A program made the translations under genes and the position numbers. Under the pieces are notes generated by a model, which saw nothing but the letters and a program-made list of their open reading frames with translations, made no database searches and had not been told where the DNA came from. A stretch of 54,153 nt of DNA from an uncultured Enterococcus sp. Lineage in GTDB: Bacteria; Bacillota; Bacilli; Lactobacillales; Enterococcaceae. Numbering within the stretch: position 1 is the stretch's first letter; each line of letters starts with the position of its first letter. The stretch is from the NCBI RefSeq assembly GCF_913775425.1, contig NZ_CAJYIS010000062.1:1-54153 (forward strand). The letters are read 5' to 3'. Positions 30,839 through 42,548 of the stretch are shown piece by piece.

Positions 30839-30859
30839 AAATCGTAAAAATTCCGATTT
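30839..30859. promoter_or_regulatory. Zur box of the zinc importer operon
   Basis: AAATCG (30839-30844), nine bases TAAAAATTC, CGATTT (30854-30859): the B. subtilis-type Zur box, just downstream of the predicted start site and before the adcA ribosome binding site. Confidence 0.85.
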
Positions 30860-30880: not shown

Positions 30881-31810
30881 ATGAAATACATAAAAAGAAC
30901 AGCAATGCTAATTGCCGGATTAGGATTATTTTTAGCTGGATGCAGTCAGTCAAACACTGCTAAAGATCAAGCAAAATCAGATAAGATCCAAGCGATTGCA
31001 ACATTTTACCCAATGTACGAGTTTACAAAGGAAGTATTAGGTGATGAAGGTGATGTTAGTTTACTGATTCCAGCGGGGACTGAACCACATGATTATGAAC
31101 CTAGTGCTAAAGATATGGCAAAAATCGCTCAGTCAGATGTTTTTGTATACAACAGTCAAGATTTGGAGAGTTGGGTAACGAGCGCACAAAAAAATTTAGA
31201 TCCAAAACATACATTGGTGATCGAAGCAACTTCAACGATTGCTTTAGAAACAGAGGATGACCATGAGTCAACAGATGGACACGATCATGAACACGATCCT
31301 CACGTTTGGACGGATCCAGTACTAGCAGTAAAAGAAGTTGAAGAGATAAAGACACGGTTAAGTGCACAGTATCCAGAGAAGAAAACGATTTTCGAAAAAA
31401 ATGCTGAAGCCTATATCGATGAATTAGAACAATTGAATACAAAATATGAAGAAGCATTCAAAGGAGCAACACATCGCACTTTTGTGACGCAACATGCGGC
31501 ATTTAGTTATCTTGCTCATCAATATGATTTGACACAAGAGTCCATTACAGGTATATCAGCAGAACAGGAGCCTTCGCCAAGCCGTTTAGCAGAATTGAAA
31601 ACATATGTTAAAGATCATGATGTACGCGTGATTTATTTTGAAGAAAATGCATCGTCTAAAGTTGCTGAAACGTTATCTACTGAAACTGGAGTAGAACTTG
31701 CAGTTTTAAACCCGTTAGAAAGTTTAACACAGAAACAAATGGATGATGGCGAGACCTATATTAGTATTATGGAACAAAATTTAGAAGCATTGAAAAAAAG
31801 TATTTATTAA
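30881..31810 (+). CDS. adcA: Zinc-binding lipoprotein AdcA (single domain)
   Basis: Extracellular zinc-capturing component of the AdcACB importer. The signal peptide has lipobox LAGC with Cys21. The cluster A-1 binding protein has likely ligands His70 (EPHDYEPS), His141 (DPHVWTDP), His205 (TQHAAFSYL) and Glu280 (NPLES). A His/Asp-rich loop near 127-139 (DDHESTDGHDHEH) marks zinc rather than manganese specificity. The 309 residues end without the ZinT domain found in the paralogue at 40147. A Zur box precedes it. ATG with GTGAGGAAAG. Followed by adcC after 12 bases. Confidence 0.94.
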   Translation: MKYIKRTAMLIAGLGLFLAGCSQSNTAKDQAKSDKIQAIATFYPMYEFTKEVLGDEGDVSLLIPAGTEPHDYEPSAKDMAKIAQSDVFVYNSQDLESWVTSAQKNLDPKHTLVIEATSTIALETEDDHESTDGHDHEHDPHVWTDPVLAVKEVEEIKTRLSAQYPEKKTIFEKNAEAYIDELEQLNTKYEEAFKGATHRTFVTQHAAFSYLAHQYDLTQESITGISAEQEPSPSRLAELKTYVKDHDVRVIYFEENASSKVAETLSTETGVELAVLNPLESLTQKQMDDGETYISIMEQNLEALKKSIY

Positions 31811-31822
31811 GGAGAGTGTAGT

Positions 31823-32503
31823 ATGCGTTATATCGAAGTGCAAAATTTAACTTTTTATTATGACGATGAACCCGTTCTCTCAGATATTAGCTATCATGTA
31901 GATAGTGGAGAATTTGTCATTTTAACTGGTGAAAATGGTGCAGCAAAATCGACTCTCGTCCGCTCTACGTTAGGATTATTAAAACCAGCACAAGGAAAAG
32001 TCACGATTGCTAAAGAAAATGTCGCGGGAAATAAATTAAGTATCGGGTATATTCCTCAACAAATTGCTTCATACAACGTAGGCTTTCCAAGTACGGTATT
32101 AGAGCTCGTTCAGTCTGGTCGTTATCCACGTGGACGCTGGTTTAAACGTTTGACAGAACGTGATCATCAACACGTTAGAAAAGCTTTAGAAGCAGTTGGT
32201 ATGTGGGATATGCGTCATAAACGTGTAGGTGCGTTATCTGGTGGTCAAAAGCAACGAATTAGTTTAGCAAGAATGTTTGCAACAGATCCTGATTTATTTG
32301 TACTGGATGAACCAACGACGGGGATGGACGATCAATCTAGACAAGAATTTTACCGTTTATTACGACATAGTGCCCATCAGCATCAAAAAGCGATTTTAAT
32401 GATCACGCACGATCACGAAGATATTCAAGCTTATGCGGATCGACATATTCATTTAGTTAGAAAGGAGGGGACTCCATGGCGTTGCTTTCACTTGAATTCA
32501 TGA
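31823..32503 (+). CDS. adcC: Zinc ABC transporter ATP-binding protein AdcC
   Basis: Cytosolic ATPase energising zinc import. The 226 residues show Walker [10 protein letters not shown] near 38-46, where the glycine before the lysine is Ala (I recall this variant in streptococcal AdcC, so it is probably family-typical), the Q-loop IPQQI, signature LSGGQKQR, Walker [13 protein letters not shown] and the switch His ITHDHED. The tail PWRCFHLNS overlaps the start of adcB by 28 bases. Middle gene of adcA-adcC-adcB. Confidence 0.94.
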
Positions 32504-33321
32504 GAAAAGCTTTTTTAGCCGCAATTTTTATTGCAGGAATTGCTCCGATGCTTGGTGTCTTTCTAGTATTACGTCGTCAGTCATTGATGGCCGACACATT
32601 ATCACATGTTTCATTAGCAGGGGTAGCTTTAGGATTTGTTTTAAATCTTAATCCGACGTTTACTACATTGATCGTTGTAGTGATTGCAGCAGTTATCTTG
32701 GAATACTTACGCACGATCTATCGGACGTATTCTGAAATCTCGATTGCTATTTTAATGGCTGGGGGATTAGCATTAGCGCTCGTCCTTATGAATCTAAATG
32801 GTGGAAATTCAGCAGTGAGTGTTCAATCGTACTTATTTGGGTCGATCGTAACGATCACAACATCACAGCTTTACTTTTTAGGTGGTCTATGTTTGTTATT
32901 GGTCTTGATGTTTCTTTTCTTCAGACGACCAATGTATGTTTTAACATTTGATGAGGATACGGCTGAAGTTGACGGCTTACCCGTGCGCATCATGTCGATG
33001 TGCTTTAATATTCTTACAGGGATTGCTATTGCGGTAATGATCCCAATCGCAGGTGCGCTATTGATCTCAGCAATCATGGTACTACCTGCAGCGATTAGTA
33101 TGAAACTGGGTAAAAGTTTTTCGGCTGTACTATTAATTAGTGTCATTGTAGGGCTTTTTGGAATGCTGAGTGGTCTGACAGGATCATTTTATTTGGATAC
33201 ACCTCCTGGTGCGACGATCACATTGGTATTTATTGCTTTGTTTTTAGTGGTTCAAATCATTCGTACACTCGTTGTACGATTTCAAATTCAAAAACAAAGA
33301 AAATTTCATGAAAAACCATAG
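32476..33321 (+). CDS. adcB: Zinc ABC transporter permease AdcB
   Basis: Membrane subunit of the zinc importer, 281 residues with about eight to nine hydrophobic segments. The family motif [21 protein letters not shown] at the first cytosolic loop, [15 protein letters not shown]-like segment and the conserved [14 protein letters not shown] near the C-terminus are present. The ATG lies inside adcC, 28 bases before its stop, with AAGGAGGGG just upstream, which indicates coupled synthesis of the two subunits. A strong terminator follows. Confidence 0.94.
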
Positions 33322-36029: not shown

Positions 36030-37010
36030 ATGTTAAACCAGTATTTTGATCCAAAGTTAAAGATTTTTGCCTTAAATTCCAATCGTCCTTTGGCTGAAAA
36101 AATTGCAGCTGCCGTTGGTGTCGAATTAGGAAAATGCTCTGTTAAACAATTTAGTGATGGTGAAATCCAAGTAAACATCGAAGAAAGTATTCGTGGTTCT
36201 CACGTATATATCATTCAGTCTACTAGTAGCCCGGTAAATGATAATTTAATGGAATTATTGATCATGATCGATGCGTTAAAGCGTGCGAGTGCAAAAACAA
36301 TTAATATCGTGATGCCTTATTATGGTTATGCAAGACAAGATCGTAAAGCACGTTCTCGTGAGCCAATCACAGCGAAGTTAGTAGCGAATATGATCCAAAA
36401 AGCTGGCGCTACAAGAATGGTGACGTTAGATTTGCATGCAGCACAAATCCAAGGGTTCTTTGATATTCCAGTAGACCACTTGATGGGTGCTCCTTTGATC
36501 GCGAATTATTTTTTAGAAAAAGGGATCCAAGGTGATGATGTTGTTGTCGTATCACCGGACCATGGTGGTGTAACACGTGCACGTAAATTAGCTGAGTTCT
36601 TAAAAGCACCGATTGCAATCATCGACAAACGTCGTCCACGTGCTAATGTCGCTGAAGTAATGAATATTATTGGCCGTGTAGATGGTAAAGTATGTGTTCT
36701 GATTGATGATATTATTGATACAGCAGGAACAATCACACTAGCAGCTAATGCGTTAAAAGAAGCTGGAGCTAAGACTGTATATGCGTCTTGTACGCATCCG
36801 GTATTATCTGGGCCAGCCTTAGAGCGTATTCAGGATTCAGCGATCGAGCGTTTAGTAGTCACAGATTCGATCAATTTACCAGAAGAGCGTAAAATCGAAA
36901 AAATCGACGAAGTTAGCGTTGGAAAATTAGTGGCAGAAGCCATTAAACGTATTCATGAGAACAAACCAGTAAGTCCACTTTTTGAAACAAAAACACCTTT
37001 AAAAGGGTAA
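36030..37010 (+). CDS. prs: Ribose-phosphate pyrophosphokinase
   Basis: Makes PRPP from ribose-5-phosphate and ATP for nucleotide, histidine and tryptophan synthesis. The 326 residues include the ATP and Mg sites [34 protein letters not shown], the conserved [13 protein letters not shown], and the PRPP-binding [19 protein letters not shown]. The start is ATG 36030, six bases after AGTGGAGG; the open frame's extra four codons cover that site. Usual neighbour of glmU. Confidence 0.96.
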
Positions 37011-37049
37011 AAAAAAGACAGCTTCCATTTTTTGGGAGATGTCTTTTTT
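37011..37049. terminator. prs terminator (also convergent gene)
   Basis: Stem AAAGACAGCTTCC / GGGAGATGTCTTT with a T-rich loop and T/A runs on both sides. Confidence 0.8.
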
Positions 37050-37428
37050 ATTTGAAGGAAAAGTAGATTGGGATCGTAGAGAGTAACGTGATGACTAAGC
37101 CAACTAAAGCACAACTCATTCCTAAAGGTTCGTTTAATAGGAAATGAGCAATACTACCCAAAAGCATTAAGTAGAAAAACGTAGCGAATTGAATGACTAA
37201 ATATGTACGATAATACGAAAGATAGCGATAGGTTTCACGAAGTTTCATCCAGCGAACAAATCCATAAGAAGCAAATGTCAGTCCGAGTAAAAATAAAAAG
37301 AATAACAGTGCTATCGATTCCCATAGACCGTGAGTGAATGCGCTGAATAACGCATATGTAGAAAAACCGATCAGTCCGACAGAGAGAATAAAATAGATAA
37401 TGCTTTCAACACGATCGAATATTTTCAT
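37048..37428 (-). CDS. Uncharacterised four-helix membrane protein
   Basis: I do not recognise a family. The 126 residues contain four hydrophobic segments: IIYFILSVGLIGFSTYALF, SIALLFFLFLLGLTFASYGF, YLVIQFATFFYLMLLGSI and ALVGLVITLLSTIPIYF. A short basic loop WMKLRETYRY lies between the second and third. No catalytic motif. ATG follows AAGGAGAACGCT. It converges on prs and is divergent from the secreted-protein pair at 37630. Gene reality is well supported by start site and coding composition; function is unknown. Confidence 0.75.
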   Translation of the reverse strand: MKIFDRVESIIYFILSVGLIGFSTYALFSAFTHGLWESIALLFFLFLLGLTFASYGFVRWMKLRETYRYLSYYRTYLVIQFATFFYLMLLGSIAHFLLNEPLGMSCALVGLVITLLSTIPIYFSFK

Positions 37429-37629
37429 AGCGTTCTCCTTTTCACAAGTTCATCATATCTAGTTGAAAGTTTAACATATTCTTAAGATAAATACTACGAT
37501 AGGTCTTCTAGGTCGACCAAAAAGGGTTAAATAAATCTTAATTTATCGCGTCATTTCAGAAAATAATCATTTTTTTTGAAAGAAATTGTGGTAGGATATT
37601 TTCGATACTACTAAAGGAGCATGAAAAAC

Positions 37630-38028
37630 ATGAGAAAAGTTCCGCCAATATTAAAACCAATTGCGTTATTAACGATTTCTGTGTTGATTGCCACAGCAAC
37701 GACTGTGGTAAATAGTTCGAGTTATCGTACGACCACGAATACTACGACCACGACCACTACAACAAGTAGCCAAACAAGTCGTTCTAGTGATGAAACGAAA
37801 CCTTCGTCTGATACCATTATGAGCGTTACAGAATCAAGCGTTGAACAAACACCAAGAACTTATGATACACAAGATCAAGAAACAATTAGTTCAAGCAGTG
37901 AAGAAAGTACGACTAGTGAAGAGAGTACCACAAGCGAACAATCTGATACGACACCGTCATCTTCAGTTGAAGAAAATGTAAATAATCTTAACGTAACTAC
38001 AAGCGATGAGGCAGGTGCTAGTCAATGA
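37630..38028 (+). CDS. Secreted Ser/Thr-rich low-complexity protein
   Basis: Function unknown. An N-terminal signal-like segment (ILKPIALLTISVLIATATTVV) is followed by about 100 residues made mostly of Ser, Thr and Glu, including a run of Thr and repeats of the type EESTTSEESTTSE. Such sequence is expected to be disordered and possibly glycosylated. There is no LPxTG anchor or lipobox. The frame opens at ATG 37621 directly after AAAGGAGC, so ATG 37630, ten bases past the binding site, is more likely. It overlaps the next membrane-protein gene by 4 bases, which suggests they act together at the cell surface. Confidence 0.75.
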   Translation: MRKVPPILKPIALLTISVLIATATTVVNSSSYRTTTNTTTTTTTTSSQTSRSSDETKPSSDTIMSVTESSVEQTPRTYDTQDQETISSSSEESTTSEESTTSEQSDTTPSSSVEENVNNLNVTTSDEAGASQ

Positions 38029-38786
38029 GTTTCTTATTAGATATCATCAATGGAATCAATAAATTTTTAGGGTATTTAGATATTAGTCCTAAATACTTGA
38101 ATCGCAGTTATACGATCTTAAGTATTTTCCCAACGCTTTATATTTTAAGAATCATCTATGGATTATTGCAAAATGAAAATTATTTACAATTTATTTTATA
38201 CAGTATCGTTTTTGTGATTTTGATTTATTTCATTGCCTTGAATATCTTTTATTACTTTTTTGATAAAAATTTAAAAATTGATGTTACCCAACTTTTTGTA
38301 AAATATCTTCCAGATGAAGTCTTCAATATTCAACAAGAGTCTAAAACATCTGCCAAAACAATGAATGCGGTCGATACTGAAGAAATTACGATCGATTTTT
38401 ATGACGATTATGAACTTATTTTAGCGATGAATATGCAAGAATTGATTGAAAAAAATGTCATATCAACAAATGAGTTATCACAGCAAGACGGCTATTTGAT
38501 TGAATGGAATACGATCTATCCTTATTACTTTGTAAAACGGATCCACCAGAATCGATATGAGCTACAAATTGGAACAAGTTATCAATCACTAGTTCCGATC
38601 GGTCGAATTGAGCACAAAGCAGAAGGGAAATTAGAACCAGTAGGACTTTACGTGACTGGTGGCGATTTTGTCAAAGACGGGTTTCGCTATCATGAACCTT
38701 ATCACTTGAAATTACTCGCTAAAAAACCACAAGTTGCAACAGAACAACCAGCGATGTCAAGAGCGCAACGTAGAAAAAAAGTATAG
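38025..38786 (+). CDS. Uncharacterised membrane protein with soluble C-terminal domain
   Basis: I cannot assign a function. In 253 residues there are two clear transmembrane segments near 28-47 (YTILSIFPTLYILRIIYGLL) and 55-79, then a cytosolic or surface domain of about 170 residues rich in Tyr and acidic residues (EITIDFYDDYELILAMNM; GRIEHKAEGKLEPVGLYVTGG), ending in the basic SRAQRRKKV. Resembles uncharacterised proteins widespread in Lactobacillales. ATGA overlap with the Ser/Thr-rich protein gene indicates a two-gene operon. A perfect terminator follows at 38895. Confidence 0.75.
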   Translation: MSFLLDIINGINKFLGYLDISPKYLNRSYTILSIFPTLYILRIIYGLLQNENYLQFILYSIVFVILIYFIALNIFYYFFDKNLKIDVTQLFVKYLPDEVFNIQQESKTSAKTMNAVDTEEITIDFYDDYELILAMNMQELIEKNVISTNELSQQDGYLIEWNTIYPYYFVKRIHQNRYELQIGTSYQSLVPIGRIEHKAEGKLEPVGLYVTGGDFVKDGFRYHEPYHLKLLAKKPQVATEQPAMSRAQRRKKV

Positions 38787-38894
38787 AAGGATTAAACGTA
38801 GTCATTACCATCGAATTTACTGATTTATGGCACTAAAACGTTTCTAGCAAGGACTAGTGAATACCCACAATAGCTTTCACTAAAATGAATATTG

Positions 38895-38939
38895 ACGTCT
38901 ATAAATCGAATGATTTTCGATTTATAGACGTTTTTTTTT
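38895..38939 (+). terminator. Terminator before the Zur-box operon
   Basis: 16-bp perfect stem ACGTCTATAAATCGAA / TTCGATTTATAGACGT, 5-nt loop, nine T. The arms also read AAATCG-N9-CGATTT, the outer pattern of a Zur box (38903-38923). Confidence 0.92.
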
Positions 38940-38950
38940 GTGAAAAAATA

Positions 38951-38979
38951 TTGACAACGAAACGCAGTTCTGTTAAATT
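38951..38979 (+). promoter_or_regulatory. Promoter of the zinc-independent ribosomal protein operon
   Basis: TTGACA (38951-38956), 17-bp spacer, TAAATT (38974-38979). Confidence 0.75.
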
Positions 38980-38989
38980 CTTTCTGCTC

Positions 38990-39010
38990 AAATCGTATTC
39001 ATTACGATTT
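38990..39010. promoter_or_regulatory. Zur box of the ribosomal protein/AdcA-ZinT operon
   Basis: AAATCGTA (38990-38997), TTCAT, TACGATTT (39003-39010): near-perfect palindrome matching the B. subtilis Zur box, beginning 11 bp after the -10. Confidence 0.9.
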
Positions 39011-39039
39011 AAATATGTCAAATAGGAAGAGGGAGTAAT

Positions 39040-39309
39040 ATGGCAAAAAAATCAAAAATCGCAAAAGCACAAAAACAACGTGCAACAGTCGAACATTATC
39101 GCAAACGGCGTGAAGCATTAAAAGCAGCTAAAGACTACCAAGGTCTTGCAGCACTACCGAAGGATGCTAGCCCGGTAAGATTGAAGAATCGAGATCGGAT
39201 AGATGGTCGACCACGTGGATATTTAAGAAAATTTGGTCTATCGCGGATTGAGTTTCGTAAGTTAGCCTTAGAAGGAAAAATCCCAGGTGTCAAAAAAGCC
39301 AGTTGGTAA
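39040..39309 (+). CDS. rpsN2: Ribosomal protein uS14, zinc-independent (C-) form
   Basis: Small-subunit protein S14 of the alternative type. The 89 residues have the conserved C-terminal [20 protein letters not shown] and [11 protein letters not shown], but none of the four Cys that bind zinc in the normal short form; there is no Cys at all. Such paralogues replace the zinc-bound protein during zinc starvation. ATG with AGAGGGAG. First gene of the operon, 30 bases after a Zur box, which directly supports this role. Confidence 0.95.
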
Positions 39310-39321
39310 GGAGGAAGAAAA

Positions 39322-39489
39322 ATGGCAGTACCTGCTCGTAAAACATCGAAAATGAAAAAACGCACACGTCGTACTCATCACCAGATCAAAAGTCCTACGA
39401 TTGCTTATGATCTAACGACAGGAGTCTATAAACGCTCACACTATATCACCAAAGAAGAAGTGAAATTGCGAAAGGCGGAGGTTCGATGA
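39322..39489 (+). CDS. rpmF2: Ribosomal protein bL32, zinc-independent (C-) form
   Basis: 55-residue L32 starting MAVPARKTSKMKKRTRRTHH as all L32 do. The second half (YDLTTGVYKRSHYITKEEV) keeps the L32 pattern but lacks the CPxC...C zinc ribbon; no Cys is present. ATG has AAGGAGGAAG at good spacing, 12 bases after rpsN2. The TGA stop overlaps the ATG of the next ORF. Fits the zinc-sparing exchange of ribosomal proteins under Zur. Confidence 0.9.
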   Translation: MAVPARKTSKMKKRTRRTHHQIKSPTIAYDLTTGVYKRSHYITKEEVKLRKAEVR

Positions 39490-39884
39490 AGATTATTTAT
39501 CCTCCTTTGATCGAAGATGGCTATGCCTACTTTAAGCAGCAAACACCTAAAGCACAACTTTATCAAGAAATGTTCCAACAAGGAATTATCGACGAAACGG
39601 GAGCTCCAACAACAGAAGCCTTACAAAAAGGCTTGGTCAAAGATTTTGATGAAGCAGAAAATTTATTGTTTGATGAGTTTCTCGAGTTGTATCCGATTTT
39701 TAAGGTTCTATCTGATTTATCGTTTAAACAAATCGAAGGATTTTGGGAAATTCCTTTAACGGCTAAAAAACAATTACTTGCACTCTATCCCGAACTAAAT
39801 TATGACCACAAACAACAACTTGACATGTATTTTCTAGAACGAGGAGGATTACAACATGCGTCAGACGATCATTTTGGAATGTAA
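39486..39884 (+). CDS. Uncharacterised 132-residue protein in the Zur-box operon
   Basis: I do not recognise this family. The acidic, soluble protein begins [20 protein letters not shown] and ends with [13 protein letters not shown]. It has no Cys, no signal peptide, no transmembrane segment, and few His (one in YDHKQQ, two in QHASDDHF), which could be a weak metal site but is not a known motif. Central part [20 protein letters not shown] looks helical. Its ATG overlaps the rpmF2 stop, and its end overlaps rpmG2 by 29 bases, so it is tightly coupled to ribosomal protein synthesis. A role in zinc homeostasis or ribosome remodelling is inference. Confidence 0.8.
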
Positions 39885-40005
39885 GGAAACAAAAGAACGC
39901 TTGTACTTAACGAGTAAAAATAAACGAAATACGCCAGAAAAGTTAACATTGAAAAAATACTCACCAAAATTACGTAAACGCGTTTTATTTCAAGAAGTCA
40001 AATAA
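39856..40005 (+). CDS. rpmG2: Ribosomal protein bL33, zinc-independent (C-) form
   Basis: 49-residue L33: [20 protein letters not shown], then [21 protein letters not shown]. The normal form has two CxxC pairs; here only one Cys (position 9) remains and the others are Lys, Leu or Ser, so zinc binding is lost. ATG follows GAGGAGGATTACAAC. It starts inside the preceding ORF. Third zinc-free ribosomal protein of the operon. Confidence 0.92.
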
Positions 40006-40026
40006 CTATGATATGGGAGAAAAAAG

Positions 40027-40143
40027 ATGGAAAAAACGGATTTATCGAGCGCTTATCGTCGTTTAAAAAGTCCAAATATCAAAACGAAAAAGCGTGCATT
40101 GAAATTGATTCAAGCAGCAAAACGAAAGCAAAAGGGGATTTAA
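40027..40143 (+). CDS. 38-residue basic microprotein in the Zur-box operon
   Basis: Too short for most ORF finders. ATG 40027 follows GGGAG, and the product starts MEKTDLSSAYRRLKSPNIKT and ends RKQKGI; almost a third of residues are Lys or Arg. No Cys. It lies 21 bases after rpmG2 and 3 bases before the lipoprotein gene, with its last codons (AAAAGGGG) acting as the next ribosome binding site. I do not recognise it. The composition fits a ribosome- or RNA-binding peptide, but that is inference. Confidence 0.65.
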   Translation: MEKTDLSSAYRRLKSPNIKTKKRALKLIQAAKRKQKGI

Positions 40144-40146
40144 TAC

Positions 40147-41676
40147 GTGAAAAATTATCAAAAATTATTGGGGTTAGGTACGATTGTACTCACTAGTTTG
40201 GGAATATTGAGTGCTTGTGGGAATAATCAAGAAAGTTCAGTAACAGCAGATTCAAAAAAATTATCAATCGTAACAACTTTTTATCCAATGTATGAATTCA
40301 CAAAAGAAATCGTAGGAGATGAAGCTGACGTTAGTTTATTAGTTCCAGCAGGTTCAGAACCGCATGATTATGAACCAAGTGCTAAGGATATGGCTAAAAT
40401 TCAATCGGCAGATGTATTTGTCTATCACAACCCTAATATGGAAGGCTGGGTATCTAACATAGAAAAAACGTTAGACGATAAGGTTAATGTGGTAGAGGGA
40501 ACAAAAGGTATGTTGCTGTTACCAGGTTCAGAAGAAGAAGATCATGACCACGAAGAAGAAGGTCATCATCATGAACTTGATCCACACACTTGGCTTGCAC
40601 CGAGTTTAGCGAAAAAAGAAGTGGCCTCAATCGAAGCACAACTAGCAAAGGTATATCCGGATAAAGCAAAAACATTTAAAACCAATAGTGAAGCATACTT
40701 AGAAAAGCTCACTACCTTAGATCAAAACTATCAAAAAAGCTTAAGTAGTGCGACGCAAAAAAGCTTTGTGACACAACATGCGGCCTTTGGTTATTTAGCT
40801 TTGGAGTATGGGCTAACCCAAGTACCGATCGCAGGTCTTTCACCAGATATTGAGCCTAGTCCTAAACGTTTGAGCGAGTTGAAAACATATGTAAAAGACA
40901 ATGATATTCGCTATATTTATTTTGAAGAAAACGCGAGTGACAAAGTCGCTAAAACATTAGCGAATGAAACCGGTGTTGATTTATTAGTCCTAAATCCATT
41001 AGAAAGTTTAACGAATGAACAAATTAAAAACGGAGAAACCTATATCTCGGTCATGGAAGAAAATCTAGTAGCCTTAGAAAAAACGACACAGTCGACAGGA
41101 AAAGCTGTTGATTCAGAAACGACAGCCGCAACAGAAAAAACAGTTGCCAATGGTTATTTTGACGATAGCGCTGTGGAAGATCGACCGTTAGCTAATTATG
41201 CAGGAAATTGGCAATCGGTTTATCCTTTATTGCAAGATGGTACACTCGATCAAGTATTTGCATATAAAGCGAAATTAAATCCGGAAAAGACCGAGACAGA
41301 GTATAAAGCTTATTATGAAACAGGATATAAGACCGATGTCAATACCATCAAGATAACGGATAGTAAAATTAGCTTTACAGACCCCAAAGGAACACATACG
41401 TATACATATAAGTATGCGGGTAAAGAAATCTTGACATATACCAAAGGCAATAAAGGTGTCCGGTATTTATTTGAAACGACGGATAAAGATGCAGGGAATT
41501 ATCGTTACGTCCAATTTAGTGATCACGGAATCAAGGATGAAGCAGCAGCTCATTTTCACATCTACTTTGGTGGAGAGAGCCAACAAGCATTATTGACTGA
41601 GATGGATCATTGGCCGACTTATTATCCGGCTGATCTATCAGCAAGTGAGATCGCTCAAGAAATGCTCGCTCATTAA
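40147..41676 (+). CDS. Zinc-binding lipoprotein AdcA fused to ZinT domain
   Basis: Second zinc capture protein, 509 residues. Lipobox LSAC with Cys24, then an AdcA-type domain with likely ligands His73, His147, His211 and Glu286 and a His/Asp/Glu-rich loop near 131-142 (EDHDHEEEGHHH). A C-terminal ZinT domain starts near 337 (GYFDDSAVEDRPLANYAGNW) and contains the AAHFHIYFG metal site. This two-domain layout is that of classical streptococcal AdcA. No permease genes follow, so it probably delivers zinc to AdcCB encoded at 31823-33321. The GTG start has AAAAGGGG nine bases upstream. Last gene of the Zur-box operon. Confidence 0.92.
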   Translation: MKNYQKLLGLGTIVLTSLGILSACGNNQESSVTADSKKLSIVTTFYPMYEFTKEIVGDEADVSLLVPAGSEPHDYEPSAKDMAKIQSADVFVYHNPNMEGWVSNIEKTLDDKVNVVEGTKGMLLLPGSEEEDHDHEEEGHHHELDPHTWLAPSLAKKEVASIEAQLAKVYPDKAKTFKTNSEAYLEKLTTLDQNYQKSLSSATQKSFVTQHAAFGYLALEYGLTQVPIAGLSPDIEPSPKRLSELKTYVKDNDIRYIYFEENASDKVAKTLANETGVDLLVLNPLESLTNEQIKNGETYISVMEENLVALEKTTQSTGKAVDSETTAATEKTVANGYFDDSAVEDRPLANYAGNWQSVYPLLQDGTLDQVFAYKAKLNPEKTETEYKAYYETGYKTDVNTIKITDSKISFTDPKGTHTYTYKYAGKEILTYTKGNKGVRYLFETTDKDAGNYRYVQFSDHGIKDEAAAHFHIYFGGESQQALLTEMDHWPTYYPADLSASEIAQEMLAH

Positions 41677-41723
41677 ATAGAATATGCTACAATAGGAAAA
41701 TGATGGGAAAAAGGAGTAATTAC

Positions 41724-42548
41724 GTGAATATTCTTGATAAATTACATACGATGTATACCACATTTTCGCTAACTGAAAAAAAAGTAGCTGATTATATTTT
41801 GGCACATCCTAAAGAGATCCCAAATATGACGATTGCGGATTTAGCCTTACAAAGTGAAGTCAGCGAGGCTTCGATCAGTCGTTTTTGCCGTAAGATAGAA
41901 GTCGTAGGCTTTCATGCATTAAAAATCGAATTGGCCCAAGTGACGATTCCAAAGCTAGATCCACACCCGGAACGCTCGCTGTTAGGCCAACGTTTAGCGC
42001 ATATCAAGCAAAATAAAATCAAAGAGATCGAACAAACTTTGATGCAATTGAATGAAGTTGATGTTCAGCAAACACTAAATCAAATCGTTCAAGCAAAACG
42101 AGTTATTTTTTTAGCGTATGGAAATACGATACCTGTTGCAATGGATGCAGCCTATCGTTTTAATCAAATTGGGATCGCGGCTAACGCGTATGAAATTTGG
42201 GATACAGCATTAGCTGCTTTATTGACTTTTACCAAAGAAGATCTAGTCATCGTGATCTCAAATTCAGGAGAGACGAAAGATTTGATCAAAGCTGTCGAAT
42301 GGTGTAACACGAAAGAGATTGTCGTAGTGGCGATGACGAATAATCAGCACTCTCCATTAGCAAAACTGGCTACGATTCACTTAACGACAGCTACTAGAGA
42401 ACGGTTATTTCAAAAAGATTATTATTTTTCTAGAGTTTCAGCGATGTTGTTGACAGAAACACTGTTCTTGCTTTTAGCGTTTGAAGAACCTGAACGTTTA
42501 GAATTTATCAAACGACATGAGCAATTGATTTCAGATCATAAAATTTAA
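41724..42548 (+). CDS. RpiR/MurR-family transcriptional regulator
   Basis: Sugar-phosphate-sensing regulator, 274 residues. N-terminal RpiR HTH (FSLTEKKVADYILAHPKEIPNMTIADLA, SEASISRFCRKI) and a C-terminal SIS domain (VIFLAYGNTIPVAMDAAYRF; LVIVISNSGETKDLIKAV). The start is GTG 41724 after AAAAAGGAG; the frame is open 24 bases further but without a site. An extended -10 TGCTACAAT lies at 41685-41693, just past the adcA-zinT stop. It precedes the RpiA-like/oxidoreductase operon, in whose leader a 31-bp-spaced repeat is the probable target. Confidence 0.88.
   Translation: MNILDKLHTMYTTFSLTEKKVADYILAHPKEIPNMTIADLALQSEVSEASISRFCRKIEVVGFHALKIELAQVTIPKLDPHPERSLLGQRLAHIKQNKIKEIEQTLMQLNEVDVQQTLNQIVQAKRVIFLAYGNTIPVAMDAAYRFNQIGIAANAYEIWDTALAALLTFTKEDLVIVISNSGETKDLIKAVEWCNTKEIVVVAMTNNQHSPLAKLATIHLTTATRERLFQKDYYFSRVSAMLLTETLFLLLAFEEPERLEFIKRHEQLISDHKI

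Follow-up and report, generated by a model that had tools for sequence, protein, structure and literature searches.

Zinc-free ribosomal proteins are widespread. The stretch of DNA analysed here, 54,153 nucleotides from an uncultured Enterococcus sp. (the window), carries genes for paralogues of ribosomal proteins behind a near-perfect Zur box, in the order rpsN2-rpmF2-X-rpmG2-sORF-adcA. The position of X, which encodes an acidic protein of 132 aa, raises the question of what such a protein does in a run of this kind.

The zinc locus around X

The unit upstream of the locus is ended by a terminator-like hairpin (38894..38932, forward strand, as are the features that follow as far as adcA), consisting of a 17-pair stem and then a T run. 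Beyond it lies a promoter-like pair of -35 and -10 elements (38951..38979; TTGACA, a spacing of 17, TAAATT, with TG before the -10) that agrees with the consensus at 10 of 12 positions, the number of such terminator-like and promoter-like sites in the region being no higher than expected by chance. Just downstream of the -10, a Zur-box-like palindrome of 21 bases (38990..39010) has one mismatch to AAATCGTAATNATTACGATTT, which we take to be the Zur box consensus. At up to three mismatches, two Zur-type boxes are found in the window and none in 100 shuffles. The second of these, at 30839 with two mismatches, stands just before an adcA-like ORF (30881-31810), after which come ABC ATPase and permease ORFs (31823-33321, read by eye); the window therefore has two Zur-boxed zinc loci.

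The run begins with rpsN2 (39040..39309), encoding an 89-aa S14 paralogue without Cys (PF00253, 1e-26), and rpmF2 (39322..39489), encoding a Cys-free bL32 paralogue (PF01783, 3.9e-14). X (39486..39884; alignment A1) is followed by rpmG2 (39856..40005), whose product is a bL33 paralogue with one Cys and no CxxC (PF00471, 1.8e-18), by an sORF of 38 aa that matches the 'putative metal homeostasis protein' model NF038026 at 8e-19 (40027..40143), and by the zinc uptake gene adcA (40147..41676), in which a ZnuA domain (PF01297, 1e-85) is fused to a ZinT domain (PF09223, 1.1e-79). No Rfam match was found over 37000-42500. Since another L32 of the same genome has CxxC pairs, and its other L33 copy has a CxxC, those in the window represent the zinc-free forms, and an earlier, sequence-only reading of this locus was right to call both paralogues.

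That reading also described the gene itself accurately. The ORF, with an ATG start, encodes 132 aa between the L32 and L33 genes, with the S14 gene also nearby; its overlaps of four bases with the rpmF2 stop (39486-39489) and of 29 bases with rpmG2 (39856-39884) are exact; and the protein, as stated, has no Cys, with three His and a computed pI of 4.52. The overlaps had been taken to mean that X is translated in step with the ribosomal proteins. As a feature of the family this is rejected: when the gap was examined at 37 named loci, the upstream L32 was readable in 33, and besides the window an overlap was present in only two of these, L087 (-4) and L119 (-1), the remainder being spaced by 0-168 bases.

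Spread and conservation of the X family

X had also been regarded as an orphan, a description that no longer holds. Over residues 1-87 of its 132 it matches phrog_25006 (PHROGs v4) at an E value of 4.5e-11, and all 39 members of alignment A2 match the same family, which is known only as a phage family of unknown function. Relatives are present in 43 of 105 Enterococcaceae genomes, a count that takes in a broken copy in E. italicus and a truncated one in genome G057. In even draws at the levels of order and class, they were detected in 50 of 395 Lactobacillales genomes and in 6 of 398 genomes across the class, all six within the Lactobacillales. When the window X was back-translated and used alone, no relative was found in either genome_contigs or viral_contigs. 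The searches of both were redone with alignments as query, and 47 X loci came from genome_contigs, belonging to Enterococcus, Vagococcus, Tetragenococcus, Liquorilactobacillus, Ligilactobacillus and Lactobacillus; a search of viral_contigs with alignment A6 returned no relative. The order rpsN-rpmF-X-rpmG is also found in an E. faecalis plasmid record. At two loci (L117:6404-6829 and L124:6418-6825) a NusG domain II protein comes after X, identified by PF07009 in the former and by eye in the latter.

Among 32 members from zinc loci, fourteen residues are invariant (M1, I3, P6, L8, E10, G39, P41, G49, E56, F65, L66, F72, W87 and E88). The well-aligned part of the family stops at R119, beyond which the tail differs among members. 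The pI of the zinc-type copies computed ranges from 4.05 to 6.33, and Cys is absent from most members computed. Rates from five close pairs of relatives are 0.03-0.09 for dN and 0.18-1.63 for dS, and by these X is under purifying selection. A chance ORF is ruled out by the relatives in 43 of the 105 Enterococcaceae genomes together with dN being lower than dS.

Searches against annotated families gave little else. X has no Pfam family up to an E value of 1 and nothing above chance in NCBIfam, where there was one hit at 0.19; a PADLOC match to Csm2 at 0.026 is taken as chance, and the best E values in PDB sequence searches were 0.64 and 0.62. With no ribosomal match in Pfam or NCBIfam, and with its acidic pI, X is not a ribosomal protein paralogue by homology. 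No description of X was found in the literature looked through, most subscription papers lying outside that coverage.

Association between X and the zinc-free bL32 paralogue

The distribution of X was compared with that of each ribosomal neighbour across the 105 Enterococcaceae genomes. Classing L32 as C- type by E value, not by a Cys reading of each hit, with a cut at 1.2e-8 that was chosen after the gap to 1.4e-7 had been seen, we find 41 genomes with X and C- type L32 together, 2 with X only, 3 with L32 only and 59 with neither. The Fisher value for this co-occurrence, 4e-23, overstates independence because the genomes are related. For L33, at a cut of 6.5e-17 plus one truncated hit in G102, the corresponding counts are 38, 5, 5 and 57, while the 89-aa S14 accompanies X in 43 genomes, is found alone in 49 and is absent together with X from 13, with no genome having X only. 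L33 thus tracks X less well, and S14 hardly, making L32 the best partner of X.

The exceptions are few. One of the two genomes with X only (G010) has a copy that, at about 200 aa, resembles the satellite form described below, and in the other (G057) the copy is cut short by a stop, there is no second L32, and a transposase-like ORF, read by eye, adjoins. C- type L32 without X is found in G002, G007 and G031. Three genomes (G038, G048 and G053) have two copies each of X and of C- type L32, and the excess of X in G003 and G011 is due to satellite-type copies.

The two genes are also physically linked. L32 lies within about 0.4 kb of X in 40 of the 47 named loci; the other seven comprise four satellite- or prophage-like loci and three from Liquorilactobacillus without L32 nearby, and in these three genomes a Cys-free L32 cluster is found elsewhere. 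In all 33 loci at which the upstream L32 was readable, out of the 37 examined, it is Cys-free. Outside the Enterococcaceae, by the genome set's own grouping, 12 of 16 retrieved loci place L32 next to X, arranged as L32-X, X-L32 (L171) or L33-X-L32 (L173). The other four comprise two with primase probe hits and two with X only. This set leaves out the X-positive genomes G138, G235 and G334, and two of the 16, L166 and L170, repeat the named loci L114 and L133; L164 and L170 gave no probe hit besides X, their neighbours being read only at the matching L133. The L32-X pair is found without rpsN2 or rpmG2 probe hits nearby at L060, L084, L165 and L171, and X stays next to L32 through shuffled gene orders.

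When E. gallinarum is compared with E. raffinosus, E. canintestini and E. cecorum (L102, L104, L105 and L106), the zinc island that includes X shows 97-98.6% identity over 4.5-5 kb. Such identity between species implies recent transfer, and part of the X-L32 linkage reflects the transfer of this one island.

Overall, the link of X to the zinc-free bL32 is strong. The connection with zinc-free ribosomal proteins proposed in the sequence-only reading is upheld by co-occurrence, by linkage and by the Zur-type box, with L32 the foremost partner.

Loss of X, and L32 without X

E. italicus has interrupted copies of both L32 and X, yet its rpsN2 and rpmG2 remain open, even if rpsN2 does not show the Met with which S14 normally starts; this one joint loss supports coupling between X and L32. 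In Ligilactobacillus ubinensis (L128), an in-frame stop interrupts X but L32 is open, and G225 combines a broken X with an L32 that meets a premature stop close to its end. These two cases show that X can be lost.

Cys-free L32 also occurs where X is absent. An order-wide L32 search provided, among the matches listed, nine L32 stretches from genomes not among the X-positive Lactobacillales, and in all nine a Cys-free L32 is present without X. Four of them (L233-L236, from families f6, f7 and f8) have a Zur-type box with up to two mismatches beside L32. The other five (L231, L232, L237, L238 and L239) have a Cys-free L32, and the sequence retrieved around it contains no Zur-type box within four mismatches; for the genome of L239 the matches listed include a single L32. 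Together with G002, G007 and G031, these nine stretches imply that X is not required for Cys-free L32, and an essential L32 chaperone is ruled out as a role for X by the Cys-free L32 of X-less genomes. Judging from these distributions, X would assist or modulate in some lineages, and zinc-free L32 as such does not need it.

Zur-type boxes and probable zinc control

A Zur-type box with up to four mismatches is found within 2.5 kb upstream of X at 39 of 40 linked loci, as against none of 37 equally long control stretches further downstream. None of eight satellite- or prophage-type copies has one within five mismatches. Of the Liquorilactobacillus loci in which X is unlinked to L32, the lone X of L. 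satsumensis has a box 95 bases upstream, with four mismatches, that resembles the palindrome accompanying the L32 cluster of that genome. The X genes of L. sucicola and L. capillatus are divergent from a fourth Fur-family gene (L093:5340-6387 and L101:5442-6387) and are accompanied by TTGCAAATNATTTGCAA-like palindromes, which differ from the box of the L32 cluster. The operon of the window carries its box at the promoter, as a member of the Zur regulon would, and from the placement of these boxes X is probably induced by zinc shortage.

The operon is of the same type as those in the Zur regulon of E. faecalis (adc genes, yciC, rpmF2, rpsN2 and rpmG2). A review table of that regulon gives rpmF2, rpsN2 and rpmG2 twice each, but the passage concerned names no X-like gene (PMC6103462). 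In S. agalactiae, the zinc-free S14 is reported to be important for growing when zinc is limiting, and the zinc form was not observed to be degraded (PMC11580457).

Relatives of X in satellite-like elements

A set of relatives not foreseen in the sequence-only reading lies outside the zinc setting, in elements here labelled satellite-like from their gene content. In Lactobacillaceae plasmids and viral contigs, X-like genes come after primase genes (a primase-polymerase with a P4-type or VirE-type protein), and several of these, the viral contigs included (among L032, L033, L085, L086 and L134-L137), have HNH and terminase genes nearby. The form present in E. avium and E. malodoratus is 198 aa long and is encoded ahead of primase-type genes. 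X and this 198-aa form are homologous over their full length (profile comparison, E 3e-31), but the latter has additional sequence at its C terminus, which resembles the second half of X (probability 83%). Unlike the zinc-type copies, the satellite-type relatives have no Zur-type box within five mismatches (all eight loci examined), and no ribosomal protein genes were seen near them. As regards phage records for the satellite forms, only two unannotated contigs, 'Enterococcus phage Efs 1-1-1', were found, one of which (L083) holds S14-L32-X-L33.

A tree of 61 X proteins, 47 zinc-type and 14 satellite-type, was built without two duplicates (L166 and L170), a truncated copy (L159) and one with 63 aa before a stop (L167). 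It involves two changes of label; a single clade of zinc-type X is not rejected (p-AU 0.39) and is seen in 42% of 200 bootstrap trees. These results fit one recruitment. The closest relatives of X outside the zinc setting being satellite-like genes, X was probably recruited once from a phage-satellite-like family; the direction, from satellite to zinc operon, is itself an inference, since the root of the tree is a chosen outgroup. Compared with phrog_25006 as a phage family, the zinc-type copies differ in separating from the rest on the tree and in having Zur-type boxes upstream.

Possible roles of X

The reading that we favour, tentatively and from the genomic evidence, is that X may be a Zur-controlled accessory protein of zinc starvation that works with the zinc-free bL32 paralogue, bL32(C-). 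We commit ourselves to X acting on bL32(C-) or on ribosomes containing it, and lean towards a role in escort or exchange. When Zur lets go, X would be made together with bL32(C-); it would then bind either free bL32(C-), which is highly basic, or 50S subunits that contain it, with the effect that bL32(C-) is incorporated over the zinc form, or that such ribosomes are marked or protected. X itself would not handle zinc. The acidity of X and the visibly Lys/Arg-rich composition of L32 fit an escort.

A doubtful alternative is that X is a hibernation or protection factor for zinc-starved ribosomes, comparable to MRF/MPY of mycobacteria though unrelated to them in sequence. There is precedent in M. 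smegmatis, where the CobW-like MRF recruits the hibernation factor MPY and is encoded in a cluster of zinc-free ribosomal protein genes (PMC7174638). X shares this kind of genomic place, being likewise a non-ribosomal protein encoded among genes for zinc-free ribosomal proteins, but no sequence relation to MRF/MPY was found: X shows neither a GTPase nor a CobW match, and the HPF/MPY, RMF and MRF families are absent from its Pfam and NCBIfam hits. Furthermore, some loci (L102) carry a separate CobW protein in the same run, and it is this protein that has the faint match to the MRF model, at 3.8e-5, far under the cut-off.

It also seems unlikely that X is a nucleic-acid-binding regulator, derived from an early gene of a satellite and adjusting this operon or other zinc genes. 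Satellite-type copies do have HTH, primase-polymerase and P4-type primase genes in their neighbourhood, and the first 50 or so residues of two predicted models of X (pLDDT 78 and 80, pTM 0.56 and 0.53) resemble part of a winged helix, with MarR, PadR and IclR rows in VIA-align at Z 2-2.8; such values, among 220 and 354 aligned chains, are common according to the tool's own warning, and calmodulins reach the same level. The best Z values were 2.9 and, with a MukBEF-MatP chain, 3.5, and Foldseek against PDB and BFVD gave nothing at E 0.001 or below (best 1.1, 1.1 and 1.3), so all of the fold matches stand at chance level. The structural match to an unrelated family that the sequence-only reading had named as speaking against it was sought with both models, and no significant one was found. 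By eye, the G-x-PT-x-x-A-x-x-x-G stretch of X resembles the KilAC phage domain, but hhalign comparison with KilAC (ANT) PF03374 members gave probabilities of 0.5-9.6%, over small alignments. A regulator would, moreover, leave the tie between X and L32 unexplained, and the zinc-type copies are acidic.

Less probable still is a passenger status for X, in which a satellite gene trapped in a mobile zinc island would be maintained purely through linkage and serve no function at L32. The island does move, as its identity between E. gallinarum and three other species indicates, and satellite-type relatives do exist. Against this are the purifying selection in the five pairs, the retention of X beside L32 while other genes are reshuffled, and the four loci at which the pair stands without rpsN2 or rpmG2 hits nearby.

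A zinc chaperone or sensor, the former suggested by the sequence-only reading with the few His as ligands, would suit a gene run that lies under a Zur-type box and ends with adcA, but it is very improbable because neither Cys nor His is conserved among the 32 zinc-locus members, His is entirely absent from the copies of L088, L089, L100, L104 and others, and X has neither the cobW match nor the conserved Cys or His of a CobW-type zinc metallochaperone.

Conclusions

The reading of X as an accessory protein of zinc-free bL32 may be carried further, to a proposal that we regard as rather speculative. X would be a domesticated phage-satellite protein that recognises bL32(C-) or its ribosomes and controls the exchange, storage or activity of zinc-free ribosomes. 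To our knowledge, a control layer of this kind in zinc starvation has been described only for mycobacteria, where it involves an unrelated protein. A conserved non-ribosomal protein that co-occurs with zinc-free bL32 offers a genetic handle on whether zinc-free ribosomes receive help in their exchange or fate, and the kinship of X with satellite-like genes would tie mobile elements to ribosome remodelling.
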